46,979 bases of DNA from Alloprevotella sp. (GTDB taxonomy: Bacteria; Bacteroidota; Bacteroidia; Bacteroidales; Bacteroidaceae). The stretch spans positions 1 to 46,979 of the forward strand of contig JAFUZP010000018.1 in the NCBI GenBank assembly GCA_017476545.1, in the 5' to 3' direction. Below are positions 5,226 through 38,447 of this stretch, piece by piece; the stretch's first letter is position 1; each line of letters opens with the position of its first letter. The position numbers were made by a program, and so were the translations under genes. The notes under the pieces were generated by a model. It was not told where the DNA came from and did not search any database. It saw only the letters and a list, made by a program, of their open reading frames with translations.

Positions 5226-7373
5226 TCACTCCACCCGCCCCTTGAAAGTAGATGCGGGAAGCCCCGCGCCGTTCACCATGTTGGCCCGCGTAAAAGGCTG
5301 CCAGCCATAACGGACAAGCCGGGGTCGGCTCACCTCACGCGGCAGGTAGAGGCGGACTTTCCGCCCCTCAAGCCGCGCTGACGCAGGATAGTAGAGTCCG
5401 TCGTCCTCCGCTACCTCAAAGGTGCGGGGCGGCAGACCGTCCGAGGTCGCGAGGCCATCGGCATCGTCAAACTTGAGAATGACTTCCCCGCCCTCATACA
5501 CGGCAGACATGAAGCGCGGCCCGCCGGGCAGGAGCGGACGACCGTAGTCCCGGGAAAGCACAAGGCGTGCCAGACGCTCCCCGACAGGACGCTTCCGCAG
5601 ATAATGCACGTCCAGACTGTCACCCACGTCGCTCGTCACGACCATGCCTGTCGCGGGTATCTCCTCAGCCAAGCGGCGCTGCGAGTCGCGGAAGGCAGGC
5701 CATGAGGGACGGTTCAGACTGGAAAGCTGTACGAAGCGGAAAGGAAGCGACGGCGCGTTCCAGTACTGCCGCCACGACTGCACAAGCAGGCGGAACAACC
5801 GCTCATGCGCCTCCACGTTATGGGCGTTGCTCTCACCCTGATACCAGGCTATACCGCGCACAGGATAGCGCGCCAGCGGGAGGATGCCAGCCTCAAAGAG
5901 GTAACAGGGCTCGTAAGGGTGACGATGGCGGAAGTCGTCACAGGCGTCACCGCCACCCGCCAGCCCGAGGTTCCGCGCGGCACGCCCGCGCGCCCATTCC
6001 TGTATGAAGTCGTTGTGGAGCCAGCGTTCCAGGATTTTTGGGAAGTCTGTTTCCAGCGTATTGCGGTCTATCCAGCTCTCTGTCGTAGCACCGCCGACGG
6101 CGTTACAGATGAGTCCGACGGGCACGCGGAGGGAGTCGCGCAGCGCACGTCCGAAGTAGTAGGCCACGGCGGAGAACTGCTGCGCCGTCTGCGGCGTGGT
6201 CGGCTGCCACAATGCAGGCTTGTAATACAGCAAGTGCCGGGCAGAGTCGATGGCAGCGGCAGGCCATTCCACATCGTCCGTAGGCCAATGCTCCTTCATG
6301 TCAAAGAGGCGCAGGCCTGAGTCCGTCGCACGACGTACCGCCTCCTGCCAACCGTCGGACTGGTCGAGGCGGCGCGCCATGTTGCTCTGCCCTGAACAGA
6401 GCCATACCTCGCCGATGGCTACATTCGCGAACACGCGACGCTCCTGCTTACGTCGGCGGTCGGCGGGCGTAGCCGTCACGGCCAGCGTCAGGGAGTCGGC
6501 GGCCTCCATCGCGGGGAGCACAACTACCCAGTCGCCCCTGTTGTCCGCCGTGGTTTCCCTGCGCACAGCAGGCCGTTTCTGGTGCCGCCCGAAACGTATT
6601 TCCAGCGCGACTGTTGTGCCCGCATCCGCCTTGCCGTGCAGCGTAAGGGGCTGGCGGCGTTGCAGTACCATATAGTCCGAAAAAGTTATCGGCAGCTGCA
6701 GGCCGCCGTAATCGCCCGTAATGGCAGAGCACACCGTGCGGGCGAGCAGGGCCGCCCCCTCCGCGTCGGGATGCACGGCGTCGTGTAGCATCCACGGGTG
6801 GGGGTAGAGCGGCGCGTGGAAGTCTATGAGTTCCGCGCCGGAACGGGCGGCCACGGTCTCTATGGCGCGCTGTATTTGTCCGTGCCATTCCTTCGTGCCG
6901 CTCTGGAAGCGCGGATGGCGGTCGGCGATGGGCGTCATCCGCGCCACGATGACGCGCGCCTGTGGATTGCCCTGCCGCAGCGAGTCGATAAGGGCGAGGT
7001 AGTCACGCACAAATTCATCGCCGTAATTGGGCCAGTTGCGCGGGTCCGTATCATTGATGCCAAGGTGGATTACAACGATGTCCGCAGCAAAACTGACCGC
7101 ATCGCGGAAGGCCTGCTCCCGCACATAAGGGCGATGGCCACGGCGCAGAAGCGTTGCGCCGGAATGCCCGAAGTTCCCCACCTCGTAACCCTCGCCCAGC
7201 ATCCGCTGGAGCTGTGCGGGATAAGCGTCGCGCTCGCGGTTCTCAAGTTTGAAACCATAGGTGATGCTGTTGCCCACACAGGCAACTTTCACGCGTTGGG
7301 CGGCAAGCCGTAACGTGCTGAACCCCATAACCGACAGCAGGCCGAGGACAAAAACTTTTCGGAAACTTTTCAT
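5226..7373 (-). CDS. two-domain esterase: SGNH hydrolase plus sialate O-acetylesterase
   Basis: 715 residues with a signal peptide (about 1-25). Residues about 27-222 are an SGNH/GDSL hydrolase: GNSITYG with Ser36, the block II glycine in GHSGAT, LGINDTD as block III, and VHPDAEG with the Asp/His end of the triad. Residues about 223-700 are a sialate O-acetylesterase (SASA) domain: GQSNM with Ser330, WYQGESN near 510-516, and a C-terminal DSLDVHY carrying a probable catalytic His. Both active sites look intact. The family includes the NanS/EstA-type double esterases of Tannerella and Bacteroides, which strip O-acetyl groups from sialic acids. No nan genes lie nearby. The frame opens at 7457, but ATG 7373 fits the signal peptide. 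Confidence 0.9.
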   Translation of the reverse strand: MKSFRKVFVLGLLSVMGFSTLRLAAQRVKVACVGNSITYGFKLENRERDAYPAQLQRMLGEGYEVGNFGHSGATLLRRGHRPYVREQAFRDAVSFAADIVVIHLGINDTDPRNWPNYGDEFVRDYLALIDSLRQGNPQARVIVARMTPIADRHPRFQSGTKEWHGQIQRAIETVAARSGAELIDFHAPLYPHPWMLHDAVHPDAEGAALLARTVCSAITGDYGGLQLPITFSDYMVLQRRQPLTLHGKADAGTTVALEIRFGRHQKRPAVRRETTADNRGDWVVVLPAMEAADSLTLAVTATPADRRRKQERRVFANVAIGEVWLCSGQSNMARRLDQSDGWQEAVRRATDSGLRLFDMKEHWPTDDVEWPAAAIDSARHLLYYKPALWQPTTPQTAQQFSAVAYYFGRALRDSLRVPVGLICNAVGGATTESWIDRNTLETDFPKILERWLHNDFIQEWARGRAARNLGLAGGGDACDDFRHRHPYEPCYLFEAGILPLARYPVRGIAWYQGESNAHNVEAHERLFRLLVQSWRQYWNAPSLPFRFVQLSSLNRPSWPAFRDSQRRLAEEIPATGMVVTSDVGDSLDVHYLRKRPVGERLARLVLSRDYGRPLLPGGPRFMSAVYEGGEVILKFDDADGLATSDGLPPRTFEVAEDDGLYYPASARLEGRKVRLYLPREVSRPRLVRYGWQPFTRANMVNGAGLPASTFKGRVE

Positions 7374-7444
7374 GGCTGTTTTTGTTTGCGGTAAATTGCG
7401 CGGCATACGGGGGATGCCCGTTCTGACCACGCGCCTTGTAAGCG

Positions 7445-7452
7445 CGAAGATA
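7445..7452 (-). promoter_or_regulatory. probable -7 box for the double esterase
   Basis: Minus-strand TATCTTCG, a one-base variant of the consensus that recurs in this window. It leaves a leader of about 65 nt. Confidence 0.4.
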
Positions 7453-7489
7453 CGCATTTCCGGCGGAACGGGAACGGGGGACGGAAAAT

Positions 7490-7591
7490 TAACCGTAGGG
7501 GTACGAAGAACTAACCGTAGGGTTGCGGGAAACTAACCGTAGGGTTGCAGGGAACTAACCGTAGGGTTGCAGGGAACTAACCGTAGGGGTA
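7490..7591. repeat. 22-bp-period palindrome array 1 (5 units)
   Basis: Five 14-bp units start at 7490, 7512, 7534, 7556 and 7578, exactly 22 bp apart. The outer two are TAACCGTAGGGGTA and the inner three TAACCGTAGGGTTG. The 8-nt spacers are CGAAGAAC, CGGGAAAC, CAGGGAAC and CAGGGAAC. The array lies between the gtrA-like gene and the esterase, both on the minus strand. It belongs to the same family as the arrays at 18157, 28710 and 35568. The spacers are too short and too similar for CRISPR. Confidence 0.9.
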
Positions 7592-7636: not shown

Positions 7637-8038
7637 TCAATACCCTCCCCCGCCCCGGCGGAACGTCACGAGGCGGTTGAAGAGATAATTAAGCCCCGGA
7701 TAAACGCACATCGCCACGAGATAAGCCCACCGCTCGGGCATAACGAGCAGCAGCCCCCGGAATGCGGCCCACTGCAACGCCCAGCAGAGCAACGCACCGA
7801 AGAAGAAAACCGAACCCTGGCGCAGCCAACGCCCCTCGCGCTGGCGGAACACCCACAACTTGTTCAGCACAAAACTGTTCAGAATGCCCGCCACGTAGGA
7901 CAGAAAGTTCGCTATATCAATCTGCACGCCGAGCCAGCGCAACACGAAGTAAGCCCCGGCTGTGACCGCCGTATTCACCACGCCGACCAAGCCGTACTTC
8001 ACCATCAGGAGTGTCTCTCCGCGCATCCGCTTGTCCAT
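7637..8038 (-). CDS. GtrA-family membrane protein
   Basis: 133 residues with four hydrophobic segments, including VKYGLVGVVNTAVTAGAYFVL, FLSYVAGILNSFVLNKLWVF and a closing YLFNRLVTF. These are the hallmarks of GtrA/DPMS-type proteins, which are thought to help move or present polyprenyl-linked sugars across the inner membrane for glycan modification. A promoter with ideal spacing (8043-8074) leaves almost no leader before ATG 8038, so translation may be leaderless or may start at ATG 8026. A GT2 glycosyltransferase is encoded nearby on the other strand (9342-10391), a possible partner by function but not by operon. Confidence 0.85.
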   Translation of the reverse strand: MDKRMRGETLLMVKYGLVGVVNTAVTAGAYFVLRWLGVQIDIANFLSYVAGILNSFVLNKLWVFRQREGRWLRQGSVFFFGALLCWALQWAAFRGLLLVMPERWAYLVAMCVYPGLNYLFNRLVTFRRGGGGY

Positions 8039-8042
8039 GCGG

Positions 8043-8074
8043 CAAAGATAACCATTACCGCACATAAACGCAAA
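8043..8074 (-). promoter_or_regulatory. promoter of the GtrA-family gene
   Basis: Minus-strand TTTG (8074-8071), exact 20-nt spacer, TATCTTTG (8050-8043). Only four bases separate the box from ATG 8038. Confidence 0.7.
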
Positions 8075-8187: not shown

Positions 8188-9339
8188 ATGGGCATCTTCA
8201 CACTTCCTCCCAAGCCGCCGCGCGCAGACCTGGACGTAGAGTCCTTCCTGCGTAGCGATTCGACGCAGGCACCCGTACGCCGGTTCCACCGCACGCTGGC
8301 TGCTGAGTGGTTTCCGCAAAGCGGCGTACAGCTGACGTGGCCACACGCCGGAACGGACTGGGCATCCATGCTCAGCGAGGTGACGGAGACTTACATCCGC
8401 ATGGCCTACGAAATCGCCACACGCGAGCAACTCCTCATTGTCACCCCCGAGCCGGAAAAGGTGCGTGCCCTGTTAGCGGGCCGCCTGCCCCGACGTGCGA
8501 CTGGCCACATCACCTATGCGGAGTGTGATACGGACGACACATGGGCGCGCGACCACGGCTTCCTGACCGTTATCGGTACGGGACAGCCGGAATTGCTGGA
8601 CTTCCACTTCAACGGGTGGGGCGGGAAATTCGCCGCACAGCACGACAACGCCATCAACCACCGGCTACATGAGGCGGGCATCGTGCGGGGGCAGTACGTC
8701 CCACACCTTGACTTTGAACTGGAAGGGGGCAGCATTGAGACCGACGGGATGGGCACCCTGCTCACTACCACACGGTGCCTGCTGAACCCCAACCGTCAGC
8801 ACCCGCACGACCGAACTGCCGTGGAAGCCTGTCTCAGCGAATGGTTCGGCATTGAACAACTGCTCTGGCTGGAGCACGGAGCCCTGGAGGGCGATGACAC
8901 GGACTGCCACATTGACACCCTTGCACGCCTCTGCCCGGAGAACAAGATACTATATGTACGCTGTGATGACCCGCAGGACACGCACTACGATGAACTGAGG
9001 AAGATGGAAGCAGAACTACGCGCCTTCCAGAACAAGTCGGGGGAAGCATTCACACTTGTACCCGTCCCCCTACCCGATGCCATCGTGGAGGACGGCGAAC
9101 GCCTGCCGGCCACCTACGCGAACTACCTGGTACTGAACCGCGCCGTCCTGCTCCCGACTTACGCCCAGCCCGAAAAGGATGAACTGGCCCGCCGTGCAGT
9201 ACAAAGCGTTTTCCCGAAATACGACATCGTACCCATCGATTGCCGCAGCCTCATCCGCCAGCACGGATCGCTCCACTGCGCCACGATGCAGTTCCCGAAG
9301 GGCGTACTCAGCACGGAAAGGAGCGCGGACGACAACTAA
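8188..9339 (+). CDS. aguA: agmatine deiminase (peptidyl-arginine deiminase fold)
   Basis: Hydrolyses agmatine to N-carbamoylputrescine and ammonia in the cytosol. 383 residues with no signal peptide, which argues against a secreted arginine deiminase. Family motifs in order: DDTWARDHG (Asp/His near 117-124), FELEGGSIETDG (177-187), DTDCHID (His241), and the C-terminal HGSLHC with catalytic Cys364. All guanidino-group-modifying residues appear intact. The next enzyme of the pathway is encoded at 41466-42347, not adjacent. The GT2 gene starts 2 bp after this stop, so the two are probably co-transcribed although their functions look unrelated. Confidence 0.9.
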   Translation: MGIFTLPPKPPRADLDVESFLRSDSTQAPVRRFHRTLAAEWFPQSGVQLTWPHAGTDWASMLSEVTETYIRMAYEIATREQLLIVTPEPEKVRALLAGRLPRRATGHITYAECDTDDTWARDHGFLTVIGTGQPELLDFHFNGWGGKFAAQHDNAINHRLHEAGIVRGQYVPHLDFELEGGSIETDGMGTLLTTTRCLLNPNRQHPHDRTAVEACLSEWFGIEQLLWLEHGALEGDDTDCHIDTLARLCPENKILYVRCDDPQDTHYDELRKMEAELRAFQNKSGEAFTLVPVPLPDAIVEDGERLPATYANYLVLNRAVLLPTYAQPEKDELARRAVQSVFPKYDIVPIDCRSLIRQHGSLHCATMQFPKGVLSTERSADDN

Positions 9340-13449: not shown

Positions 13450-16400
13450 ATGAAGACTCCGAGTACACATTTGCTCGGAACGCTGGCTGCAGTGCTGGCG
13501 TTCCAAGGGGTAGCCATGGCGCAGCCGAAGGGGCTGAAAAACCTTTCAAGTGAACGTCTCTCAGCCGAAGAGCGGCAGAAACGGGAACAGACCATCCGGG
13601 AGAAGTACCCGCAGTTCAGCCTTCCCCTCACATTCGGGCAGCCTAAAGCGGCCGGCGACCTTGTGCCCGTCCGTAGCGAACGGGCAGCCCAGCCCCCCTT
13701 TAAGGCATCCAAAGTGGTGCAGCAGGGCGGACGAATGAAAATCACAGCGGCATCCGGGGCGGAGATACTGGTGAACATCACCTACGCACCCGGCATGACA
13801 TCCTACAATGACCGTAGCATCGTAAACATGAACACCGCCGACCCAGGAACGCAAGAAACGCTGGCTACGGGCAACTACAGCTTCTATAACGGTGTTGGCA
13901 TCGTCGGGGATTATTTCTACGGGTGCTATAATATATATTATGAGTCCTACGGTTACTTCCCTTCCATATATACGTTCGACATGGATACGTGGGAGCTCGT
14001 AGAAACCGACTACCCGGACGGCGACTACTCACTCATGGCGCAGGAAACAGCCATGGCTGCAGACGGTACAATTTATGGCTCGTTCTTCAACACGGCGGGG
14101 ACTGCGCGCGAACTCGGTGTTGTGGACTACGCCAACGGGACGCGCACAACCATCGGCCCAGCCACGAAGTTTTATTGCGCAATGGGCGTGACGAAAGAAA
14201 ATGTCCTTTACGGTATCGCAATTGACGGCAACCTATACAGGATAGACACGGCGACCGGGACAGAAACCCTCGTAGGGCCGACAGGTGTCACCATAGCCAA
14301 CTCGAGCGGGAACTTCTACCAGCAGACGGGCGAGATTGACCAGAAAGACAACACATTCTACTGGTTGGGGACGGATTTCCTCGCGAACACGACATCGCTC
14401 TACACCGTCAATCTTGAGACTGGAGCAGCTACCAAACACTACGAATTCGGCGAGTATACCTTCGCGGGTATGCTCATCCCGCAAGCCAACGTTGCCGAGG
14501 GCGCACCCGGTGCCGCACAAGAGCTGAAAGCCGAGTTCGCTAACGGACAACTCACCGGCCAGATAACATTCAAAGCCCCCACGCAGACGTTTGGCGGAAG
14601 CGCACTTACGGGCGAAATCAACTACACCGTAAAGGCCAACGATGCCACGCTAGCGAGCGGAAAGACTACCCCCGGAGCCAACGTCAGCGCAAGTGTGACT
14701 GCGGCGGAAGGCATGCAGACGTTTGTCGTCACGACACAGAATGCCGTAGGAGAGTCGCCCAAAGCGAAAGTACGCACGTGGGTCGGCTTAGACACTCCGA
14801 AGCCTGCGACCGACGTAACACTAGCTATCAATAATTCCAGCGGCGTGGCGACACTCACTTGGACTGCCCCCACAGAGGGTACACACGGCGGCTATATCGG
14901 CGACCTGCGGTACGATGTTCACCGCATCGCTGCCGGAAATGCCATTCTCGTGGCCGAAAAACAAAGCGGCACGACGTTCACAGAAACACTGACGAAGGAC
15001 GGCATCGCCAACTACGCCTACAGCGTCACCGCCTACAATGGCAGCAGAGCGAGCAATGCGGCACAGTCCAACGCCGTCCTGCTGGGTGACGCTTACACCG
15101 TCCCCTACACAGAAGACTTCAACTCGGCGGAACGCGCCGCCATCTGGACGGTCATTGACGCGAATAACGATGCCACACAGACGTCTTACGGCCTGAACGG
15201 CGGTTGGACGCTAGAACCGAAAGAAGGTACGGCTAGCTACCTTTACGGTGACGTTACGGCTGATGACTGGCTCATCTCGCCCGCCATCCACTTGAAGGCT
15301 GGGCAGGCATACATGATCTCCGTTGAAGCGAAAGCACGCTCGGCAAGCGGCACCGTCTATCCCGAGGTTTTTGAGGTGAAACTCGGCAAAGAAGCCACCG
15401 TGGCCGCTATGACAACCGCCGTACTCGCACGCACCGATGTGAACTCAGACACCTATCAGACGTTCACCAGCCCAGAGTTGAGAGTAACAGAAGACGGCGA
15501 CTACCACATCGGCATCCACGCCCTGAGTTCGCCGGACGCCTGGACGCTGTACATCAACACGGTTTCTATAGAAGCCGCCGTGCTGCCCACTGCGCCCGAG
15601 GCCGTGAAGAACCTGCAAGTCACCCCGGCTGCTGACGCCCGCCTTGAGGCTACCGTTTCCTTCCGCACGCCGTCACAAACTGTCAGCGGCGATGCGCTCA
15701 CAGCTCCGCTGACGAAGATTGAAATTCTCCGCGACGGTACGCTCGTCCACACCCTCAACAACCAGAGCCTCAACGCCGAGGTAACATGGACCGACACCCA
15801 AGGGCTGACCAACGGCAAGCACCACTACCGCGTCATACCATACGCAGGAACAGATGCAGGTCTGCGGGCCGAAACAACGGCCTACATCGGCGTGGACGTA
15901 CCTGACCGCGTTAAGAACATCCGGATACGGGACAACCGCACTTCCATCACCCTCATGTGGGACAAGGTAGGTAGCGTCGGTGCTAACGGCGGCATCGTCA
16001 AGCCCGAAGAAGTGGAATACCTGGTTTGGAGCACCGTAGGCTCCGCCGGTTCCTACTTCCTTGATGAGGTGCAGCAAGTCGTACAGGACGACAACAGCGC
16101 CACACTGGCAGTCAATACCGGGACGGGCGAACAGCGCGAGCAATACTGGGCCGTGCAGGCCCGCAACGCCGCCGGTCCCGGCGCGGCCTATATGAAGAGC
16201 CTACTTGTGGGCAAGCCCTATACCCTACCCTTCAAGGAAACAGTCACTGGCGGGGAGATGAACAACTATTGGGACTTGCAGCGTACCAGTCCTGCCGTAT
16301 CCATAGGGCTTTCTAACGAATACACCGACGGTGATGGATACGCCTTCCAGATGATCTCATCCGAAGCGGGAGAAGAGGGCGAACTGTACTCCGGCAAAAT

Positions 16401-17970
16401 TTCGCTGGCCGGAGCGAAGAACCCCATGCTCACTTTCAACCTCAAGGGCGCACCCGCCAATAACAGCCTCGGTATATATGTATCCCGCTCAGGCGGCGCA
16501 GAGAGTATGCTAGGCATAGCGAACACGCAGAGCGACTTTACCACGCACAAGTTCAGCCTCAAGGATTACAGCGCCGAGGAGTTCATCCGACTCATCTTTA
16601 TCGGGTCGTTCGAAGAAGCCGGCTCTATAGTCTTTGACAACATCAACGTGCTGGACATGCTTGATAACAACCTGTCCGTAAGTAACCTCGAAGCACCGGT
16701 AGCCCTCCAGGTCGGCGATGAAGGCCGCATCAGCGTACGTGTGACGAACCTTGGCGATGCCCCGGCAACAGGCTACACTGTGAAAGTGACCGCCGGCGGC
16801 AAGGAATTGCTCAACGAAACGGTCAGCGAAACGCTCCCCTCCATGGGCAGCCGCACGTTCGAGGCCACCTATAAGACGACCATCTTTGACGTGGCGGGTA
16901 ACATACCCGTCGTAGCGCAAGTTGTCTATGCGAGCGATGAAGACAACAGCGACAACGAAACCACAACCTCTGTGCGCCTTACGGCCGCATCGTCCAACTC
17001 TCCCGGCGACCTCACCGCCGTAGAGACGGATGGCCACGTACGTCTGGACTGGACCGCCCCGAGTATGCGGACAACACAACAGACGGAAAGTTTTGAGGAC
17101 ACGGAACGGTTCCCGCTCTTCTCCATAGGCGGAGTGACAGCGACGAAGCACAGCGGAACGCTCGGAGGCTGGACGCTCTACGATGCAGACGGCGGTACGA
17201 CTTACCAATGGAACGTGTCTTACGAGAACCGGGGCAAGCAAATGGCCTGGCAGGTTATCAACCCGAAGAATATCTTTGGGGAAAGCATTTACGAAGCCGA
17301 CTTCGCGCAGGATGGCGAGCAGTATCTGATATCCTTCTGCACCATGAACGGCGCGACGGACGACTGGCTCATATCGCCACAACTCCCGGGAGTGGCGCAG
17401 ACCGTGACGTACTACGTGAGATGCCTCACCCTGCAATACGGCAACGAACCCTACGAAGTGCTCTACTCCACGACGGATAACAACATCGGCAGCTTCCAGA
17501 AGCTCGGCGAGACGCTCGAGGCAACCGTCCTGTGGGAAGGCCGCACGTTCGACCTGCCCGAGGGGACGAAGTACTTTGCCCTGCGACACGTGGCCACAGA
17601 GGCCTTCGGCCTGCTCATAGATAACGTGACATACACGGTTGAAGGCGGGGATGTCGCCTCCTACAACATCTATGTGGACGGCCTGCTGACCGCCAACGTG
17701 GACGGTACCCGCAACTTCTTTGACGAGCTGGACGGCGCGCTGGCACAGGGCGACCACGTGTTCAGCGTCACGGCCCTGTATGCAGACGGCAGTGAGTCCG
17801 CCCCCGTCTCCACTATGCTAGCCACAGGCATCACCGACATCACGCTGGACGGAACGCCGGCCGACGTGTATTCGCTGGACGGTAGGCTCATCCGCCGCCA
17901 AGCCCGCGATGTGAGGGGACTGCCGAAGGGTGTCTATGTCATTGATGGCCGCAAGGCCGTTATCCGATAA
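13450..17970 (+). CDS. large secreted fibronectin-III / choice-of-anchor-J protein with C-terminal sorting-type tail
   Basis: 1506 residues with a signal peptide (ending AMAQ, about residue 25). After an N-terminal beta-propeller-like region (about 110-300), two or more fibronectin type III domains (LKAEFANGQLTGQITFKAP and related segments; DVTLAINNSSGVATLTWTAP) alternate with choice-of-anchor-J jelly-roll segments, recognisable by YGDVTADDWLISPAIHLKAG near 600 and ATDDWLISPQLPG near 1300. The last 40 residues (VYSLDGRLIRR, LPKGVYVIDGRKAVIR) resemble the C-terminal sorting tails of Bacteroidota secreted proteins. No catalytic motif was seen, so an adhesive or substrate-binding surface role is inferred. 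The ORF is intact and ends at a strong terminator. Confidence 0.88.
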   Translation: MKTPSTHLLGTLAAVLAFQGVAMAQPKGLKNLSSERLSAEERQKREQTIREKYPQFSLPLTFGQPKAAGDLVPVRSERAAQPPFKASKVVQQGGRMKITAASGAEILVNITYAPGMTSYNDRSIVNMNTADPGTQETLATGNYSFYNGVGIVGDYFYGCYNIYYESYGYFPSIYTFDMDTWELVETDYPDGDYSLMAQETAMAADGTIYGSFFNTAGTARELGVVDYANGTRTTIGPATKFYCAMGVTKENVLYGIAIDGNLYRIDTATGTETLVGPTGVTIANSSGNFYQQTGEIDQKDNTFYWLGTDFLANTTSLYTVNLETGAATKHYEFGEYTFAGMLIPQANVAEGAPGAAQELKAEFANGQLTGQITFKAPTQTFGGSALTGEINYTVKANDATLASGKTTPGANVSASVTAAEGMQTFVVTTQNAVGESPKAKVRTWVGLDTPKPATDVTLAINNSSGVATLTWTAPTEGTHGGYIGDLRYDVHRIAAGNAILVAEKQSGTTFTETLTKDGIANYAYSVTAYNGSRASNAAQSNAVLLGDAYTVPYTEDFNSAERAAIWTVIDANNDATQTSYGLNGGWTLEPKEGTASYLYGDVTADDWLISPAIHLKAGQAYMISVEAKARSASGTVYPEVFEVKLGKEATVAAMTTAVLARTDVNSDTYQTFTSPELRVTEDGDYHIGIHALSSPDAWTLYINTVSIEAAVLPTAPEAVKNLQVTPAADARLEATVSFRTPSQTVSGDALTAPLTKIEILRDGTLVHTLNNQSLNAEVTWTDTQGLTNGKHHYRVIPYAGTDAGLRAETTAYIGVDVPDRVKNIRIRDNRTSITLMWDKVGSVGANGGIVKPEEVEYLVWSTVGSAGSYFLDEVQQVVQDDNSATLAVNTGTGEQREQYWAVQARNAAGPGAAYMKSLLVGKPYTLPFKETVTGGEMNNYWDLQRTSPAVSIGLSNEYTDGDGYAFQMISSEAGEEGELYSGKISLAGAKNPMLTFNLKGAPANNSLGIYVSRSGGAESMLGIANTQSDFTTHKFSLKDYSAEEFIRLIFIGSFEEAGSIVFDNINVLDMLDNNLSVSNLEAPVALQVGDEGRISVRVTNLGDAPATGYTVKVTAGGKELLNETVSETLPSMGSRTFEATYKTTIFDVAGNIPVVAQVVYASDEDNSDNETTTSVRLTAASSNSPGDLTAVETDGHVRLDWTAPSMRTTQQTESFEDTERFPLFSIGGVTATKHSGTLGGWTLYDADGGTTYQWNVSYENRGKQMAWQVINPKNIFGESIYEADFAQDGEQYLISFCTMNGATDDWLISPQLPGVAQTVTYYVRCLTLQYGNEPYEVLYSTTDNNIGSFQKLGETLEATVLWEGRTFDLPEGTKYFALRHVATEAFGLLIDNVTYTVEGGDVASYNIYVDGLLTANVDGTRNFFDELDGALAQGDHVFSVTALYADGSESAPVSTMLATGITDITLDGTPADVYSLDGRLIRRQARDVRGLPKGVYVIDGRKAVIR

Positions 17971-18156: not shown

Positions 18157-18236
18157 TAACCCCACGGTTAGCGTGCTGTACCCGTAGGGTTAGTACGTCG
18201 TAACCCTACGGGTAGTTTTCGTTACCCGCAGGGGTA
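18157..18236. repeat. 22-bp-period palindrome array 2 (4 units)
   Basis: Units start at 18157, 18179, 18201 and 18223, exactly 22 bp apart: TAACCCCACGGTTA, TACCCGTAGGGTTA, TAACCCTACGGGTA and TACCCGCAGGGGTA. Changes in one arm tend to be matched in the other (CCCGTAGGG, CCCTACGGG), so dyad symmetry is preserved while sequence drifts. It lies between convergent genes. The rest of the gap holds a terminator at 18361-18408 and nothing else I recognise. Confidence 0.9.
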
Positions 18237-18448: not shown

Positions 18449-19762
18449 TCAGCGACCGATGGAGAAGTAGTCAAATCCCGCATCAGCAAGCTCCTGCGGG
18501 TCATAGATATTGCGTCCGTCAAACAAGACGGGACGGCGCATCACACGGCCGACAGCCTCCCACGACGGCAGGCGGAACTGTTTCCACTCCGTGAGCAGGA
18601 GCAGGGCGTCGGCACCGAGGACGCAGTCATAAATATCTTTGGCGTAATAAACGCTGTCGCCTAAGCGGCGGCGTCCCTCGTCCATAGCAGCAGGGTCATA
18701 AACGCGCACTGAGCAGCCCGCATCGAGCAGCCGGCTGATGGTGACGAGCGAGGTAGCCTCGCGCATATCGTCCGTTTCGGCCTTGAAGGCGAGCCCCCAG
18801 AGAGCTATGGTCTTACCACGAAGATCGCCGCTGTAGTATTTGGAGAGTTTCTCAAACAGCACTGACTTCTGCCGCTCGTTTACGTCCTCAACGGCGCGCA
18901 GTACGCTCATCGTGTAGCCGTACTGCTCTGCAGTCTTGATAAGTGCCTTCACATCTTTCGGGAAGCATGAGCCACCGTAACCGCAGCCGGGATAAAGGAA
19001 CTTCGCACCGATGCGTGTGTCCGAACCAATACCCTTCCGCACCATGTTCACGTCTGCGCCGACGAGTTCGCAGAGGTTGGCCACATCGTTCATAAAACTG
19101 ATGCGGGTGGCGAGCATCGCATTGGCAGCGTATTTTATCATCTCGGCTGAGGGAATGTCGGTGAAGAGGACGCGGAAATTGTTCAGCAGGAAAGGTTTGT
19201 AGAGGCGCGTCATAAGTGTCTTCGCCCGCTCACTCTCCACACCGACAACAACGCGGTCCGGCGACATGAAGTCCTTAATGGCACTTCCTTCCTTGAGGAA
19301 TTCGGGATTGGAGGCCACGTCAAAGGGAATATCCGCCCCGCGCGCGTCAAGTTCCGCTTGGATTGCAGCCTTGACAAGGCGCGCCGTGCCAACGGGAACA
19401 GTGCTTTTCGTTACAACGACCATATAGTGCTGCATGTTCCGTCCCACCTCGTGCGCCACTTCAAGTACGTAGCGGAGGTCGGCACTGCCGTCCTCGTCGG
19501 GCGGGGTGCCCACGGCACTGAACACAGCCTCTACATCATTCAGGCAGTCTTTGAGGCGTGTCGTGAAATGCAGCCTCCCTTCGCGCTGGTTCCGCAGCAC
19601 CATCTCGTCCAGCCCGGGCTCGTATATAGGAATCTCGCCACGGCGGAGGCGGTCAATTTTCCGCTCGTCAATATCCACGCAGGTCACGTCTATGCCCATC
19701 TCGGCGAAGCACGTGCCCGACACAAGGCCGACATAGCCCGTGCCAACGATTGCTATCTTCAT
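18449..19762 (-). CDS. ugd: UDP-glucose 6-dehydrogenase
   Basis: Oxidises UDP-glucose to UDP-glucuronate with two NAD+, for surface polysaccharide and lipid modification. 437 residues. N-terminal Rossmann GTGYVGLVSG (7-16), AVGTPPDEDG (84-93), SNPEFLKEGSA (151-161), and the catalytic GYGGSCFPKD with Cys266; then the C-terminal UDP-binding domain (ALWGLAFKAETDDMREA). ATG 19762 is chosen over 19780 because the protein then starts directly at the Rossmann strand. A hairpin with T-tract separates it from secG, so at least partly separate expression is likely. Confidence 0.95.
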   Translation of the reverse strand: MKIAIVGTGYVGLVSGTCFAEMGIDVTCVDIDERKIDRLRRGEIPIYEPGLDEMVLRNQREGRLHFTTRLKDCLNDVEAVFSAVGTPPDEDGSADLRYVLEVAHEVGRNMQHYMVVVTKSTVPVGTARLVKAAIQAELDARGADIPFDVASNPEFLKEGSAIKDFMSPDRVVVGVESERAKTLMTRLYKPFLLNNFRVLFTDIPSAEMIKYAANAMLATRISFMNDVANLCELVGADVNMVRKGIGSDTRIGAKFLYPGCGYGGSCFPKDVKALIKTAEQYGYTMSVLRAVEDVNERQKSVLFEKLSKYYSGDLRGKTIALWGLAFKAETDDMREATSLVTISRLLDAGCSVRVYDPAAMDEGRRRLGDSVYYAKDIYDCVLGADALLLLTEWKQFRLPSWEAVGRVMRRPVLFDGRNIYDPQELADAGFDYFSIGR

Positions 19763-19775
19763 AACTGTCCGTATA

Positions 19776-19811
19776 AACAAAAGAGGCTACCCCTGTTCGG
19801 CGCAGCCTCTT
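19776..19811 (-). terminator. terminator downstream of secG
   Basis: AAGAGGCT (19781-19788) pairs with AGCCTCTT (19804-19811). On the minus strand TTGTTTATA follows. It sits in the 57-bp gap before ugd. Confidence 0.7.
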
Positions 19812-22946: not shown

Positions 22947-23699
22947 TCAGAAAAGGAGCTGCGCGCGAACGGCGACAGTTCCGCTACCGGCTTTGCGTAA
23001 TTCCACATCGCAGATACCGTCCTCACGCTCCTCCACGAAGAACTGCAGCCGCTCACCGCCAAACGTTTCCTGCGCATAGGCCATCTCCACCCGCCGCAGA
23101 CCGCTCCCTTGGAAACGCTCCAGCGGGAAGATATCCAACACCCACTCCATCGCACGTATGCTGTTAAGGTGTCCGTTCACATCAAGGTCGGTAAAGCAAA
23201 CCTTGCGCTCGGCAACAGGCACTGCCGCACGAACGCGGATACGCCCCGGCCCCGTAATGGGGAAGTCTGCGGGAACGGGCTCGAGGATATCGGAAAAAGA
23301 ACCCGTAGGTAATGCCATAAGGTCCATCGGTTGGCGCGTCTGTAAGTCTATAAGCGCCCAGACGCTGTAAACATGCCCCCAAGGCGCTCCGTCCGGGCGG
23401 CGCACCTCATAGAGGCGGGTGGTGAACTGGCGGAAAATTGTGCTGGCCCATGTACTCACGACATAATCGTCGCCAGTGCGCGGGCGGCCGTTAGGGAAGT
23501 CCAAGATAAGCCGTGAGAAGACCCAGCTGAGACGTTCGCGACTCATCGGGCCAAAGCCAAACCCGCATCCCTCCGCATGGAATTGGGCGCAACGCAGGAG
23601 GACGTTCCCCAAGTGTCCCCAGGAAATCTGTCCTGTCACGTCCTCCGAGAATGGCTCTACCCGGAACTGATAATTACCGATGTGGGAGTTTTCTTTCAT
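22947..23699 (-). CDS. acyl-ACP thioesterase (FatA/FatB-like)
   Basis: 250 residues forming a double hot-dog fold. The N-terminal half holds YQFRVEPFSEDVTGQISWGHLGNVLL and the C-terminal half DLDVNGHLNSIRAMEWVLD, where the Asn/His pair of VNGHLN belongs to the catalytic network of plant-type and bacterial acyl-ACP thioesterases. It releases free fatty acids from acyl-ACP in the cytosol. Promoter TATCTTTG at 23715-23708 gives a very short leader. Divergent from the DPP-IV gene, with only 25 bp between start codons. Confidence 0.88.
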   Translation of the reverse strand: MKENSHIGNYQFRVEPFSEDVTGQISWGHLGNVLLRCAQFHAEGCGFGFGPMSRERLSWVFSRLILDFPNGRPRTGDDYVVSTWASTIFRQFTTRLYEVRRPDGAPWGHVYSVWALIDLQTRQPMDLMALPTGSFSDILEPVPADFPITGPGRIRVRAAVPVAERKVCFTDLDVNGHLNSIRAMEWVLDIFPLERFQGSGLRRVEMAYAQETFGGERLQFFVEEREDGICDVELRKAGSGTVAVRAQLLF

Positions 23700-28709: not shown

Positions 28710-28789
28710 TAACCCTATGGATGGGCTTCTGTACCCCTAGGGGTAGTCTGCCGTAACCCTAGGGGTAGGATTTCGTAACCCTAGGGGTA
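28710..28789. repeat. 22-bp-period palindrome array 3 (4 units)
   Basis: Units start at 28710, 28732, 28754 and 28776: TAACCCTATGGATG, TACCCCTAGGGGTA (a perfect palindrome), then TAACCCTAGGGGTA twice. Spacers are GGCTTCTG, GTCTGCCG and GGATTTCG. It lies in the 500-bp gap between the divergent small lipoprotein and mtaB. The rest of the gap holds promoter sequence and a short frame from 28502 that I do not regard as coding. Confidence 0.9.
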
Positions 28790-28922
28790 TTTCCCGCCCT
28801 CCACGCCTTACTGAAGTTCGCGCCTGCTAGCCATAGAACTGATGGGGGTGAGAGCGACACGCCCTTCAACACAGCGCGGTACAAAAGTCGGAGAAATAGG
28901 CCTGCACCCGGAGAGTTTTTTG

Positions 28923-28930
28923 TACTTTCG
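28923..28930 (+). promoter_or_regulatory. probable mtaB -7 box
   Basis: TACTTTCG, only 4 nt before ATG 28935, implying a leaderless or nearly leaderless mRNA. Confidence 0.4.
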
Positions 28931-28934
28931 CCGC

Positions 28935-30287
28935 ATGAATCGGATTTCACCCTCAACAGAGATACTGCGGACGGCAGTTTACCACACATTGGGCTGCAAG
29001 CTTAACTTTGCTGAAACAGCCTCCCTGCGCGATGCACTGTGCAAGCGGGGCATCGTCCCCGCCAGACGGGACGAAGCGGCAGACCTGTGCGTGGTGAACA
29101 CGTGTAGCGTGACGGACGTGGCAGACCAGAAGTGCCGCCAGCTGATACGCCGCTTTGCCCGGCAGCACCCGCAAGCGCTCATCGTTGTGATGGGCTGTTA
29201 CGCCCAGCTACAGCCGGAGGTGGTAGCCGCCCTGCCCGGAGTGGGGCTTGTTGTCGGGCAGCGGGAGAAAGGGCGCATCGTGGAACTGATTGAAGAACGC
29301 TTAGGACAGCACAACGCAACCGCCGGGCTGGCGATTTGCGGGACAGAGGGAACGGACGAGGATGCTGGGGGGCGTGTCCCCTTCGTCCCTTCCTGCTCAC
29401 GCGGTGACCGCACGCGATATTTCCTCAAGGTACAGGATGGCTGCAACTACTTCTGCACCTACTGCACCATCCCCATGGCACGCGGACGGAGCCGCAACGG
29501 GAGCATCGCTTCTCTCACGGCACAGGCGCGGGAGGTAGCGGCGCAAGGAGGAAAGGAAATCGTTATCACAGGCGTGAATATCGGCGATTTCGGCAGAACT
29601 ACGGGTGAGACATTCCTTGACCTCATACGGGCACTGGACACTGTGGAGGGTGTGGAACGCTACCGCATCTCCAGCATCGAACCGAACTTGCTCACGGATG
29701 AAATCATCGACTTCTGCGCTACATCGCGCGCCTTCATGCCCCACTTCCACATTCCCCTGCAAAGCGGGTCGGACGAGGTGCTGCGACTGATGCGGCGACG
29801 CTACGACACGGAGCTCTTCCTGCGGAAAGTGGAGCACGTCCGCGCCGCGATGCCGGATGCCTTCATCGGCGTGGATGTTATTGTCGGGACACGCGGAGAG
29901 ACGGAAAAGCACTTTGCCGAAGCGTATAGCTTCATGCAAGATCTGGATGTCGCCCAGTTCCACGTGTTCAGCTACTCGGAGAGACCGGGGACAAAGGCAC
30001 TGGAAATCCCGCACATCGTCGCGCCGGAAGAAAAACACGCACGCAGCCAGCAGCTTTTAGCACTGTCGGAAAAGAAACGGAAGGCATTCTACGGACGCTT
30101 CATGGGTACACGCCGCACCGTCCTGTGGGAACATACGGAAGGCTGTCGCACGATGCACGGTTTCACGGACAACTATGTGCGCGTGGAAATGCCCACAGGA
30201 AAAGTCCCGCCCAGCGGGAATACTTTGCAGGAAGTCGGGCTCGGCGACTTCACGCCGGAGGGTGAGGCACTCCTGGCAGAGGCTTAA
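28935..30287 (+). CDS. mtaB: tRNA (t6A37) methylthiotransferase MtaB
   Basis: A radical-SAM enzyme that converts t6A37 to ms2t6A37 in tRNAs reading ANN codons. 450 residues. N-terminal UPF0004 domain with three cluster cysteines (LGCKLNFAET, NTCSVT, MGCYAQ), radical-SAM motif CNYFCTYC for the second 4Fe-4S cluster, IVITGVNIGDFG, HIPLQSGSDEVLRLMRRRY, DVIVGTRGETE, and a C-terminal TRAM-like domain. Both clusters look intact. The frame is open from 28842, but ATG 28935 follows the promoter-like box directly and begins the conserved domain. Confidence 0.95.
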   Translation: MNRISPSTEILRTAVYHTLGCKLNFAETASLRDALCKRGIVPARRDEAADLCVVNTCSVTDVADQKCRQLIRRFARQHPQALIVVMGCYAQLQPEVVAALPGVGLVVGQREKGRIVELIEERLGQHNATAGLAICGTEGTDEDAGGRVPFVPSCSRGDRTRYFLKVQDGCNYFCTYCTIPMARGRSRNGSIASLTAQAREVAAQGGKEIVITGVNIGDFGRTTGETFLDLIRALDTVEGVERYRISSIEPNLLTDEIIDFCATSRAFMPHFHIPLQSGSDEVLRLMRRRYDTELFLRKVEHVRAAMPDAFIGVDVIVGTRGETEKHFAEAYSFMQDLDVAQFHVFSYSERPGTKALEIPHIVAPEEKHARSQQLLALSEKKRKAFYGRFMGTRRTVLWEHTEGCRTMHGFTDNYVRVEMPTGKVPPSGNTLQEVGLGDFTPEGEALLAEA

Positions 30288-35278: not shown

Positions 35279-35295
35279 CCATTCCTAACCCTTAG

Positions 35296-35370
35296 GGTGC
35301 CTAATGGGACTCGAACCCATGACATTCAGAACCACAATCTGACGCTCTAACCAACTGAACTATAGGCACC
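35296..35370 (-). tRNA. tRNA-His (GTG)
   Basis: Minus-strand cloverleaf with acceptor GTGCCTA/TAGGCAC plus the extra 5' G(-1) opposite the 3' C that marks histidine tRNA. The anticodon stem is TCAGA/TCTGA with loop TTGTGGT, anticodon GTG. The T-arm contains GGTTCGAGTCC. CCA is not encoded. It has its own promoter and terminator. Confidence 0.95.
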
Positions 35371-35407: not shown

Positions 35408-35567
35408 CAGGTTTCCAACTTTACGGCCAAACTTTTCTTGCACAAATATGCGGCATTTTTTCGGCGGAGAGACACTAGCACGACTGACAGCCTGCCCAAA
35501 ATACACGGATGACAAACGGAAAACGCTCCCCTTACACAAAAAGCGGAATACACGGCACAGCACTCCG

Positions 35568-35669
35568 TTCCCATAGGGGTAGTTCACTGTAACCCTATGG
35601 GTAGCTCACCGTAACCATAGGGGTAGTTCGCCGTAACCATAGGGGTAGTTCGCCGTAACCATAGGGGGA
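35568..35669. repeat. 22-bp-period palindrome array 4 (5 units)
   Basis: Units start at 35568, 35590, 35612, 35634 and 35656: TTCCCATAGGGGTA, TAACCCTATGGGTA, TAACCATAGGGGTA twice, TAACCATAGGGGGA. Spacers GTTCACTG, GCTCACCG, GTTCGCCG and GTTCGCCG are themselves alike. It lies in the 380-bp gap between tRNA-His and the HTH gene, the rest of which holds only the tRNA promoter. Confidence 0.92.
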
Positions 35670-35752
35670 CGATTTTCGCTCCCTGCACCAGCCCGATCCA
35701 TCCCTACAGCTGCAGATGCAGAAAGCTCAGCCGCCAGCCTGGAACAGGACGG

Positions 35753-36232
35753 TCACTTTGCCGAAGGTCCGAAAGACTCGTATGTCCCGTCACTGTAAAA
35801 AATGCGGATCTCCGTGACCTTACGCGCGGGCGCGGGCGTTCCTTTATCCACAAATAACGGGGTCGGACGCATAGACACATCCCGGCTGCCACGCAAACGG
35901 GAGGAAAGACCTACCGACGTAACGACATCAGCGCCTTCCACCGCATTCGGCGACTCCGGCAACGCCTCGCCCTCGGCACGAACATCCGAAGGACTCCCAC
36001 CTAAAGCTGCGTCAGCAGTCACCAACATCTCACCTTCTCCAAAAAGAAGCCAATTGACGCTGACCTCAGGGAAGGCCCGGTGAACCGCCTGAACGTGGTT
36101 GTTCGTTGGGTTGGTACGCCCAGTAAAAATACTCGATAGGGATGCCGGCGAAATTGACAACTTCGCGGCAAAATCTTGCTGCGTCATTTGCAGCTCATCC
36201 ATCAGCCGACGGATTCTATCCTTCATTTCCAT
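35753..36232 (-). CDS. XRE/Cro-type helix-turn-helix regulator
   Basis: 159 residues. Residues about 3-65 form a lambda-repressor-like DNA-binding domain (MTQQDFAAKLSISPASLSSIFTGRTNPTNNHVQAVHRAFPEVSVNWLLFGEG), with SISPASLSSIFTGRT as the recognition region. The remaining 95 residues are low complexity, ending in RKVTEIRIFYSDGTYESFG. The layout resembles phage-type CI regulators and small housekeeping XRE proteins of Bacteroidales. The promoter is about 120 nt upstream, leaving a long leader that contains one degenerate unit of the 22-bp array family (36302-36315). Array 4 begins 84 bp beyond its stop. ATG 36226 is an alternative start. Confidence 0.85.
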   Translation of the reverse strand: MEMKDRIRRLMDELQMTQQDFAAKLSISPASLSSIFTGRTNPTNNHVQAVHRAFPEVSVNWLLFGEGEMLVTADAALGGSPSDVRAEGEALPESPNAVEGADVVTSVGLSSRLRGSRDVSMRPTPLFVDKGTPAPARKVTEIRIFYSDGTYESFGPSAK

Positions 36233-36390: not shown

Positions 36391-37250
36391 ACGTAGATAT
36401 AAATTTTTATTTCTATAGACTTGCGGATTTATATTTCCACATTTACAGTTCAACCATTGCAGGGCATACAATAATTATACCCAGCCCAAATCCCTCATAA
36501 ACGGCAACCAAAACAAACTTAAAGCAAATGTAAATGAAAAATGCTGCAACCCCTGGTTTATATATCATTACGCAAAATAACAATTCCATGTAGGGAAATT
36601 TAAGCAGGGCGCACGATATAAAATGGGCGGACTGAGGAGGCAAACACTACAACAAATTTGGATAACTTATCGAATATCAATGGCAAAGAAACCATATGGG
36701 ATATTCTAATATGTATTGAGGTACGTATTGGTTTGTTGAGTTTGTATTTATAAATTACAAATTCTAGGTGATAAATATTCACTCTTCACGTAATTTACAT
36801 TTGTATTTGCACACCAATTGTTGTCAAAAGGGCGGTTATTTACATGTTACATTCTACAAAGTGAAATGCAAACAAACCTTAATCAATGTTTCTGCAAGGA
36901 AAAAACGCGAAAATAATGCCCTCAATAATCCCGAATCCGCCCACAAGTCAGAGCAGCGGCTACGCGCCAGCCATTTTAGCCAGAATTACTCACAACAAAC
37001 TGAAACACAAGAAATAACAACCCTATTTTTGTGCAGAAGAAAATGGGGCTAAAAAATCCGAAAAACCGCTTTTCGGGGTATTTCAAAGGGATTTTTAGGG
37101 AATTCTAGGGAGGAGAGGCCGCTTTCAGATGGGGCTAGGAGGCCGAAATTCACATTTTCGCAGAAGGCACGCAGGCTGCTCCCCCACCCTCTGCATGGAC
37201 AAGAAACACCCACCATACTTTTTCGTTTTTTTTTACATTGGGAAATTAAA
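36391..37250. other. gene-free stretch, AT-rich in its left two thirds
   Basis: About 36390-37050 is far more AT-rich than the rest of the window; 37050-37250 returns towards normal. The frames present (36443-36643 minus, 36768-37052 plus) lack promoters, recognisable domains and local codon use. An 11-bp inverted repeat CAAATGTAAAT (36526-36536) and ATTTACATTTG (36793-36803) and a palindromic TTTATAAA core near 36748 are visible. A promoter-like TATTTTTG lies near 37024-37031, followed by hairpin CCGAAAA/TTTTCGG at 37058-37076. It may be the remnant of a transferred element or hold an unrecognised RNA. Confidence 0.45.
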
Positions 37251-37274
37251 AACAAACGGAGGGGACACCCCTCC
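37248..37274 (-). terminator. holA terminator
   Basis: GGAGGGG (37258-37264), loop ACA, CCCCTCC (37268-37274). On the minus strand GTTTGTTTTT follows. It is 135 bp past the holA stop. Confidence 0.68.
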
Positions 37275-37409
37275 CCCGAGCAGGCATATCGCAGCCGAAG
37301 CCACGGGAAATATCCGCGTAAGCCCGAGGGAAAAATCCGCGCAAGCGACAGCGGCAACGCGCAAAGCCGATAAGAGAGGAATCCGGGGCGGGAAGCGAAC
37401 CGCCTCGCG

Positions 37410-38447
37410 TCAGTGAAGAATGAAGTACAGCAACTCGCGCATGAGGTCACCGTTTGTAATGCTCGGGTTCCCCACCCCTTTCGACCGCGCGTCGGTACGG
37501 CGGATTTCTCCCAAGATATGCATCACTTTCACCCCATTGTAGTTGCGCAAGGCCGGAAACACGTTCCTACGGACCTGCCACTCGCCCATGCCGAGCCACT
37601 CCGCGAGACCCCGCTCGGACTTATCGGGCGCATAATGAGCCAGCATCAGATGGGAAAAGAAGCGGAAAAGACTGGGCAGTGTTTTCTGAATGGGATTTGC
37701 TTTCGGATTCTTGTCGAAATAGTTCGCGATACGCATCGCCTTAAGAACGTTTTTCCCACCGAGCGCTTCTTGCAACTCAAAGATGTTAAACTCCTTACTT
37801 ATGCCGATATGGGAGGCTACGAGGTCGGCCGTCACCGCCTGCCCCCCACTAGCGGGCAGCGCGATACAGAGTTTGTCCAACTCACCCGCCATGCGGCTCA
37901 AGTCAGCGCCCACGTACTCTGCCATCATCGCGACGGCATCGGGCTGTATCGCTGCCCCTTTCCGTTTCAGATAGCCCGTTATGAAGGGCGCAAGCTGGCT
38001 TTCATACAACTTTTTGGACTCATAGACCACACCGCCTGCCCGCTCTATCAGCCCCGGGAGCTTCTTGCGACGGTCAAGAGCGCCGTTCTTGTGGCAAAAG
38101 ATTAGTACGGTAGAAGGCTGCGGTTGCCGCAGGTAATACTCGAGACGCTCAATGTTTTTCAGGTTTTGTGCCTCCTTGACAACAACCACCTGCCGCTGCG
38201 CCCCCATCGGGAAGCCCTTTGCGGCATCCATCACCGCATCGATATCCGTGTCTAAGCCGAATACCGTCATCAAATTGAAGGCTTTCTCCTCTTCCCGAAG
38301 CACGCTGTCCACGAGGAAGTCCGCCACGCGATCAATATAATATCCCTCCTCGCCCATCAAGTAATAGACGGGAGCGATTTTTCCGGCGCGCACATCACGA
38401 ACAATCGTCTCGTGCGTAACAGCGGGGACTTTGGAGGAGTAGGCCAT
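37410..38447 (-). CDS. holA: DNA polymerase III subunit delta
   Basis: Clamp-loader subunit that opens the sliding clamp. 345 residues. Evidence: PVYYLMGEEGYYIDRVADFLVDSVL at the N-terminus, VVVVKEAQNLKNIERLEYYLRQPQPSTVLIFCHKNGALDRRKKL, SRMAGELDKLCIALP and FNIFELQEALGGKNVLKAMRIANYF: the delta AAA+-like domains and collar. As expected for delta, there is no working Walker A motif. It is 15 bp downstream of the nucleosidase gene and so in an operon with it. dnaX, the other clamp-loader gene here, is 3 kb away and separate. Confidence 0.93.
   Translation of the reverse strand: MAYSSKVPAVTHETIVRDVRAGKIAPVYYLMGEEGYYIDRVADFLVDSVLREEEKAFNLMTVFGLDTDIDAVMDAAKGFPMGAQRQVVVVKEAQNLKNIERLEYYLRQPQPSTVLIFCHKNGALDRRKKLPGLIERAGGVVYESKKLYESQLAPFITGYLKRKGAAIQPDAVAMMAEYVGADLSRMAGELDKLCIALPASGGQAVTADLVASHIGISKEFNIFELQEALGGKNVLKAMRIANYFDKNPKANPIQKTLPSLFRFFSHLMLAHYAPDKSERGLAEWLGMGEWQVRRNVFPALRNYNGVKVMHILGEIRRTDARSKGVGNPSITNGDLMRELLYFILH

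Follow-up and report, generated by a model that had tools for sequence, protein, structure and literature searches.

The window analysed here, which is the whole stretch of 46,979 nt from Alloprevotella sp., contains four short arrays of a near-palindromic unit, and these belong to a large family (the TAACC family, with arms TAACC/GGTTA) that recurs in intergenic DNA throughout the genome, is locked to a period of 22 bp, and sits more evenly along the chromosome than random intergenic sites, about 9 kb apart. Several congeners carry arrays of the same design built from other palindromes, and some of these arrays lie beside genes for HU-HIG proteins (PF18291, HU/IHF superfamily), which were searched for across the genus after they had been guessed to be the readers. 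The arrays may be cooperative platforms for HU-HIG dimers with a role in the nucleoid, a reading to which we give about an even chance, with binding, stacking and effects on topology all inferred.

Table 1. Arrays of the TAACC family in the window and the genes around them
Feature	Position	Strand	Basis	Surroundings
TAACC-family array, 5 units of 22 bp	7490..7591	+	unit matrix and direct reading	flanked by GDSL/SASA esterase gene (5226-7457, -) and GtrA-like gene (7637-8065, -)
TAACC-family array, 4 units	18157..18236	+	unit matrix and direct reading	between convergent genes for a Cleaved_Adhesin protein (13450-17970, +) and a UDP-glucose/GDP-mannose dehydrogenase (18449-19780, -)
TAACC-family array, 4 units	28710..28789	+	unit matrix and direct reading	adjoins 5' side of radical-SAM/UPF0004 (MiaB/RimO-like) gene (28842-30287, +)
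TAACC-family array, 5 units, first and last degenerate	35568..35669	+	unit matrix and direct reading	flanked by tRNA-His (35295-35369, -) and HTH_3 gene (35753-36232, -)

The original prediction described 18 units (5, 4, 4 and 5) at four intergenic loci, with every step at 22 bp and each unit made of a 14-bp near-palindrome plus an 8-nt spacer. All of this was borne out when the arrays were reread directly and found again with a matrix of the unit (Table 1), and the distances given between the loci (10.7, 10.6 and 6.9 kb) were correct. The consensus first proposed, TAACCCTAGGGGTA, holds for the window; in the genome sample the palindromic consensus is TAACCCTAGGGTTA, and the core is often not self-complementary. 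TRF recovered three of the four arrays (at 7476, 28705 and 35571), the one at 18157 being absent from its list for the window. The degenerate end units of the array at 35568 read TTCCC... (first) and ...GGGGGA (last). Elsewhere in the window, the neighbour of the GtrA-like gene (8188-9339) encodes a Porphyromonas-type peptidyl-arginine deiminase family protein (PF04371), and the adhesin has named relatives in Prevotella lacticifex and rumen Prevotella MAGs at 27–36% identity (five near-full-length matches).

The source genome (G000) is a 1.98-Mb assembly of 46 contigs, 80% complete, from which 847,601 bases (848 kb), window included, were sampled. Further arrays outside the window had been set as a test in the original prediction, and the search of the 848 kb with the palindromic unit matrix brought the number to 79, as against none in one block-shuffled control, with arrays in every contig sampled. 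Most contained four units (50 arrays) or five (17), the others having two (5), three (1), six (4), eight (1) or ten (1), and 258 of the 261 unit-to-unit steps were of 22 bp. Across the whole genome, the paired pattern, in which a unit is followed by the arm of its neighbour and at most three mismatches are allowed, had 443+452 matches, compared to 1+1 for the reversed control. None of the 79 arrays lay inside a called gene, the calls coming from a simple periodic Markov model that misses some genes (for example, the HTH_3 gene at 35753). A phage origin was considered and rejected; a single viral contig was matched, it carried two units of another kind, and its DNA was 41% G+C as against 57% in the window.

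The anatomy of the unit was examined in 44 registered four-unit arrays, after four of 48 rows had been left out as misregistered. Information per position was highest in the arms (1.29 bits), lower in the 4-bp core (0.93) and lowest in the spacers (0.64). The spacers are specific to their position within the array (15.46 bits, against 13.84±0.17 when permuted within arrays, a value reached in 0 of 200 permutations), so that the arrays seem to be descended from a four-unit ancestor. At more than about 8 bp from the outer units, the flanks had nothing in common, single weak positions excepted.

The original suggestion that related genomes be searched met with a divided outcome, in that no TAACC arrays were found in any of the 57 congeners, which share about 60–71% identity in the MiaB-like protein, but the same design was present in several of them as arrays of other palindromes at 21–23 bp. 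Among the family members sampled, the TAACC sequence stayed at background, 20 of 150 having one match with at most two mismatches, like the reversed controls, and a scan of named genomes with the exact pattern, in a set that possibly does not include the source genome, gave no stretches. In G043, the family CAAAC-nATn-GTTTG at 21 bp had 293+279 matches (control 0+1), while other genomes had 0–4 apart from related variants in G114 (27) and G169 (18). The family CTGCA-N5-TGCAG, also at 21 bp, is common to G162 (298 matches) and G167 (429; controls 0 and 3), has 58 matches in G192 (control 12), and, with three mismatches allowed, shows 3–26 background matches in the remaining genomes. Family sizes range from 3 arrays to hundreds of matches. 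The source genome itself has minor families; its 22 further candidates, not all of them palindromic, include at least six clear palindrome types at 22–23 bp. Positional conservation at the MiaB-like gene was rejected, as a clearly palindromic upstream array was found in only one of 19 congener loci (G167), some of these loci having short flanks.

What persists between families is the period. The 15 arrays of the first family that were found in 380 kb of G043 could all be read by eye as exactly four GTTTG-N7-CAAAC modules, allowing one mismatch per arm; in the other register, taken by the chain finder, they had three, four and five units in two, nine and four arrays, and 47 of 47 steps were of 21 bp. 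The arm, core and spacer lengths of different families (5-4-5-8, 5-4-5-7 and 5-5-5-6) each sum to 21–22, and a period that stays at two helical turns while its parts vary in length argues for double-stranded DNA read by a dimer. A census of intergenic tandem arrays at periods of 12–35 (identity 0.68) gave 11, 10 and 10 arrays at 22 bp in contigs C9, C10 and C1 of the source genome, with at most two at any other period. The corresponding counts were 15 at 21 bp and 19 at 22 bp in G043a (2–5 at each other period), 6, 5 and 4 at 21, 22 and 23 bp in G043b (2–4 elsewhere), 8 and 2 at 21 and 22 bp in G167, and 5 and 2 in G162. G153 had two arrays at 21 bp and G064 three, some other periods being at least as high, and the 80-kb sample of G082 had none at 20–23 bp. 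Across 29 congener stretches (495 kb, identity 0.66), there were 20, 7 and 3 arrays at 21, 22 and 23 bp, counts in which one each is a run of N and some units are non-palindromic (rows of L203 with N were disregarded); periods of 17–20 and 25–29 had one array each, and raised numbers were also seen at 13–16 (4, 5, 13 and 7), 24 (4) and 30 (5). Twenty-four stretches of other genera (369 kb) had 2, 7 and 1 arrays at 21–23 bp and 0–4 elsewhere, and 100 kb of E. coli K-12 had none at any period from 13 to 32. At 21–23 bp, the units were more palindromic than shuffled ones (z 7.7 for the minor arrays of the source genome, n=20; 5.7 for G043, n=40; 16.2 for G167 and G162 together, n=19), with no such excess when the period was different (z 1.4 and 0.6, n=8 each). 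A repeat that differs from the short arrays was seen at L129:7005-7382 (G043:C6, about 907.0–907.4 kb), where a 23-bp minisatellite runs to about 15 near-perfect copies.

The idea that the loci are spaced on a chromosomal scale was upheld in the source genome. The 74 TAACC arrays with at least three units define 62 gaps with a mean of 11.2 kb, a median of 9.1 kb and a coefficient of variation (CV) of 0.56, compared to 0.80–0.86 for the same number of random intergenic regions, and in each of six variants of this null, 0 of 1000 draws reached 0.56. Only four gaps were shorter than 5 kb, where 18–21 were expected. Adding the two-unit arrays and the minor families gave CVs of 0.52 and 0.55; some minor-family arrays lie only 0.2–1.7 kb from TAACC arrays, and the possibility that either class simply fills gaps between TAACC arrays was rejected because of such close pairs. 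Among the congeners (periods 21–22, with N masked, as the stretches contain a TG run as well as 561 and 200 N), 300 kb of G043 held 32 arrays of nine sequence types with a CV of 0.59 against 0.83 (24/2000), and neighbours of different type were less than 4 kb apart in one of 21 gaps, compared to 6.6 expected (4/2000). These arrays were grouped by motif classes, single-linkage clustering having merged nearly all of them. The CV was 0.36 against 0.72 in G167 (7/2000) and 0.38 against 0.72 in G162 (77/2000), the shortage of gaps under 4 kb not being significant in either (455/2000 and 368/2000, respectively), and even spacing was absent from the seven arrays of G043b (CV 0.97 against 0.76). A single spacing rule across families is not general, since the minor families of the source genome come close to TAACC arrays.

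A link to a candidate protein came from gene neighbourhoods. The ten PF18291 matches of the source genome comprise seven HU-HIG and three ordinary HU genes, as judged by score and sequence, and a private array lies beside six of the seven HU-HIG genes, five by detection and one, the GTTGAGTGCCTAGTCAAC array of L221, by eye. Arrays of the TTGAGTGCGCACTCAA family adjoin L215 and L219, AGGAAGTTAAGCTTCCT arrays lie on both sides of the L217 cassette, which consists of a leader-protein gene and a HU-HIG gene, and the CGTTCCATAAGGGAACG and GGAGTACGCGTAG families are represented beside L223 and L225, respectively. For comparison, a minor-family array occurs within 300 bp of 21 of 569 genes, so that the probability of at least five of seven is 1.4e-6, or about 1e-5 if L215, L219 and L221, which are paralogues and not independent, are counted once; none of the three ordinary HU genes has such an array. 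The paralogues L215, L219 and L221 (82–90% identical) share a palindrome type, and L217, L223 and L225, none of which exceeds 56% identity to these or to one another, have other palindromes, the data points being few. The leader proteins form a family of about 200 aa with a KKPYVKPTMQVFPLGCGLLAASG-like leader, a conserved 5' region and a divergent remainder, found at L060:3419-4036, L060:5895-6503 and L217:775-1458 and, within the genome sample, in ten or more other places; two members that were scanned had no Pfam or NCBIfam match. The leader motif lies directly upstream at five of the seven HU-HIG loci.

In G043, the loci of 20 of the 30 PF18291 matches could be used. A 136-aa HU-HIG type is present in 15 copies, every one of which has the same type of array about 150–200 bp on its 3' side (nine by detection, six by eye). 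The copies (e.g., L220, L228 and L241) are scattered over the 2.6-Mb genome, those that were compared being 94–99% identical, and the gene with its array looks like a recently amplified cassette. Other types have other arrays, with the GTTTG family beside L214/L218 (about 440 bp) and, by coordinates, C5:189467, the CACGAG family beside L240 (degenerate at L216, by eye), a TTTCACC array beside L213 (by coordinates), and a AAACGATAGTACT array beside C6:43519. Arrays and HU-HIG genes are also neighbours, by coordinates, in G114 (C20:14143/14693) and G169 (C27:16475/16327). Co-occurrence over the genus was judged in most genomes from one short stretch. In G082, the 80-kb sample without arrays at 20–23 bp goes with a best PF18291 match that is only HU-like (1.9e-8); G064 (80 kb) and G015 (60 kb) have HU-HIG-type matches yet few or no palindromic arrays, several other HU-HIG genomes had no arrays in stretches of 8–20 kb, and G166 has palindromic arrays of 21 bp at contig ends and no strong HU-HIG match.

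HU-HIG proteins are, from these neighbourhoods, candidate readers of the arrays. A nucleoid-type partner such as the original prediction envisaged has been found as a candidate, in that HU/IHF-superfamily HU-HIG genes adjoin arrays, but no TAACC array private to a HU-HIG gene was found among the seven genes of this 80% complete genome. The candidate reader of TAACC, by elimination, is L212 (G000:C10:10365-10712), because it is the only HU-HIG gene of the source genome without a private array beside it. A lone TAACC-like unit lies upstream of this gene, and such units occur nine times in 141 kb of intergenic DNA. The L212 gene stands head to head with an ORF that, by its sequence, may be an XerD-type recombinase, the pair lying at L212:1420-1851 and 2111-2986 (G000:C10). 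Of the HU-type genes, only L227, an ordinary HU gene, has a TAACC array immediately adjacent, on the 3' side, but arrays of one kind or another were found within 300 bp of 132 of the 569 genes.

Phased half-sites, a low and fixed number of units, even spacing, the lack of an RNA signature and adjacency to HU-HIG genes together point to platforms for dimers of nucleoid proteins. Each array would be a double-stranded binding platform of three to five palindromes, usually four in the source genome, with a half-site for roughly every helical turn, all facing the same side of the DNA, and a dimeric, sequence-specific protein would stack on it side by side over about 80–100 bp. The likely readers would be the HU-HIG proteins, each type of paralogue with its own palindrome, and the arrays, about every 9 kb in intergenic DNA, could give the nucleoid fixed points of attachment or act in it as topological insulators.

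It is unlikely, though worth serious consideration, that the arrays are instead non-autonomous mobile repeats, with a HU-HIG gene (or other enzyme) and its array as the parent cassette, like RAYT/REP REPtrons, and with even spacing produced by selection against close copies. Such an origin would suit the position-specific spacers and seeming four-unit ancestor, the 15 near-identical gene-and-array copies of G043, and the great range of family sizes. It would also suit the turnover seen between the syntenic sister species G162 and G167 (identity of 85% or more in 38 of 51 matched proteins), where, of ten G167 arrays in the shared region, six had an array detected in the corresponding G162 interval and four (20619, 32184, 56209 and 66719) did not. 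Against it, the alignments of the two sisters showed no clean insertion boundaries, nor could terminal inverted repeats, target duplications or clean empty sites be made out. Among TAACC arrays there is no sign of recent copying, the median identity to the nearest copy being 0.78 (n=44) and the one pair at or above 0.9 being part of a larger gene duplication. The arms are conserved above the spacers, and the strict period of 21–23 bp in unrelated families would be left unexplained. In the same alignments, five of the six shared arrays align and the one at 6140 does not. Read by eye in the joined stretch of G167:C9, the core of the middle unit at 16742 appears inverted relative to G162, as do the spacers at 23550 and 45846, with little else changed. 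The region at about 37060–37500, which contains a TCATGCGCATGA array, is near-identical in G162, other aligned intergenic regions being more diverged, and this suggests recent exchange or strong constraint.

No transposase partner was found for the arrays. Matches to Y1_Tnp are patchy (28 of 58 genus genomes), and the source genome has one weak match, a 332-aa protein with a partial domain at L103:1252-2250 (G000:C25), with no arrays in the 1.5 kb on either side, in contrast to the Y1 transposase flanked by repeats in REP/RAYT systems. REPs end, on one side, in the tetranucleotide GTAG or CGTC (PMC3733652). This invariant end is missing in the TAACC units, of which only 17–29% have the G at position 12 that GTAG would require, and the 20–40 bp stem-loop with compensatory change that characterizes REPs has no counterpart in units that show no covariation within or between them. 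Membership of the REP/RAYT group was rejected on these three grounds. The earlier analogy with REP and BIME elements does not extend to membership, as neither the REP features nor the alternating orientation of BIMEs was found, although there is a likeness in the many intergenic palindromes per genome and in sets that differ between species. The arrays have 14-bp units with near-touching half-sites in three to five head-to-tail copies at 21–23 bp, and whereas REPs alternate in orientation within a BIME, the units are direct repeats at 22 bp in which single spacers may be flipped. BIMEs, known from E. coli and other bacteria, are also characterized by binding of gyrase/IHF or a block to supercoil diffusion. 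By analogy, the arrays may work like BIMEs, which have been discussed as barriers to supercoil diffusion (PMC6907758).

The BrickBuilt MITE of Porphyromonas gingivalis is likewise a tandem repeat of similar period in intergenic DNA of a member of the Bacteroidota; it has a 23-nt repeat in 1 to 22.8 copies, with a leader and a tail carrying terminal inverted repeats, at 19 loci (PMC4596501), and BrickBuilt-type MITEs receive only a mention in PMC5771137. In contrast, the arrays described here have no leader, tail or terminal inverted repeats, their units are palindromic and their spacing is even, and the number of units is low and mostly fixed, most often at four. CRISPRs differ in having repeats of 24–48 bp and unique spacers, as opposed to a 22-bp unit with 8-nt spacers that recur between loci. 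With 79 dispersed loci, the question of adjacent cas genes is moot.

Sites of the matS, SlmA and parS type are mostly single, regional or few, and conserved between species. The arrays resemble them in being short, dispersed palindromes for a nucleoid or segregation protein, the role presumed here, but have many sites per array and a sequence specific to a species or clade. The expectation that no known repeat family would match held in the comparisons with REP, BIME, BrickBuilt, CRISPR and Rfam, none of which gave a match. No description of such arrays was found in the open-access literature, most subscription journals lying outside its scope, nor in that literature any of tandem palindromes as HU-HIG sites, the domain itself being described in Pfam. 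As far as could be searched, the class appears to be new.

We consider it improbable that the arrays are ordinary operators, with HU-HIG paralogues acting as transcription factors of a regulon that includes the leader-protein genes. Arrays lie 5' or 3' of HU-HIG genes, as in autoregulation, and several TAACC arrays are upstream of leader-protein genes. An even spacing would be unexpected for a regulon, however, and about a quarter of the arrays are between convergent genes. By gene context the 79 arrays divide into 39 tandem, 18 convergent, 16 divergent and 6 at contig edges, and intergenic regions of 100 bp or more number 165, 52 and 63 for the first three. Array context follows the supply of such regions whatever the direction of the genes, and a role as terminators or promoters was rejected on these grounds.

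The preference of the original prediction for double-stranded DNA read by a dimer, over RNA hairpins, gained support from the locked period, the placement blind to gene direction and the lack of covariation between units, all of which are consistent with a DNA site. It is very doubtful that the arrays act in RNA, as terminators or as processing or attenuation signals from the 3' or 5' ends of transcripts. The 80-nt arrays do fold better as RNA than their dinucleotide-shuffled versions (mean z −3.2, with 70% of arrays under −2), as is expected for any array of palindromes, yet single-unit hairpins are weak, at about −2.3 kcal/mol, and the pairing halves show no covariation within units (z −2.7) or between them (z −0.8). 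In G043 the base pairs flanking the arms were fewer than expected (8 against 12.4 of 47), 16 of the 79 arrays are between divergent genes, and Rfam covariance models had no match at the window arrays, either over the whole window or in 35480-35760 with E up to 1. A cloverleaf or four-way RNA junction, formed from four units, three 8-nt loops and a closing pair, was likewise rejected, there being no covariation and the closing pair being depleted (z −2.0). Equally far from probable is a DNA structure that needs no dedicated protein, in which phased palindromes extrude cruciforms and absorb torsion: the seeming interchangeability in spacing of arrays of unrelated sequence (300 kb of G043) would suit this, and the three apparently flipped segments at 16742, 23550 and 45846 would fit hairpin or cruciform intermediates, but the arms of a family are conserved by sequence, and cruciforms have no need of phasing at 21–22 bp and would favour perfect palindromes, whereas the cores avoid self-complementarity (2 observed against 14.9 expected of 57 in G043; z −5.9 at core positions 6 and 9 in the source genome).

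Taking the platforms for HU-HIG dimers as the preferred reading, a wider conclusion can be offered tentatively, as a possibility with less than even odds in our judgement. The Prevotella-like bacteria may have a chromosome-organizing system of HU-HIG proteins that have diversified, so that every type has a palindrome of its own, and that stack on four-site arrays phased at two helical turns and placed about every 8–10 kb. Proteins and sites would turn over quickly between species while architecture and spacing are kept, and arrays of different sequence would have the same role. The nature of the barriers between bacterial topological domains is listed as an open question in a review (PMC6907758), and array sites with a candidate reader from the HU/IHF superfamily would make this question testable outside the enterobacteria. 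The nucleoid reading would also explain why some of these genomes, such as G043 with its 30 PF18291 matches, have so many HU-HIG paralogues and, if true, would represent a case of rapid coevolution of a protein and its sites under a conserved architecture.
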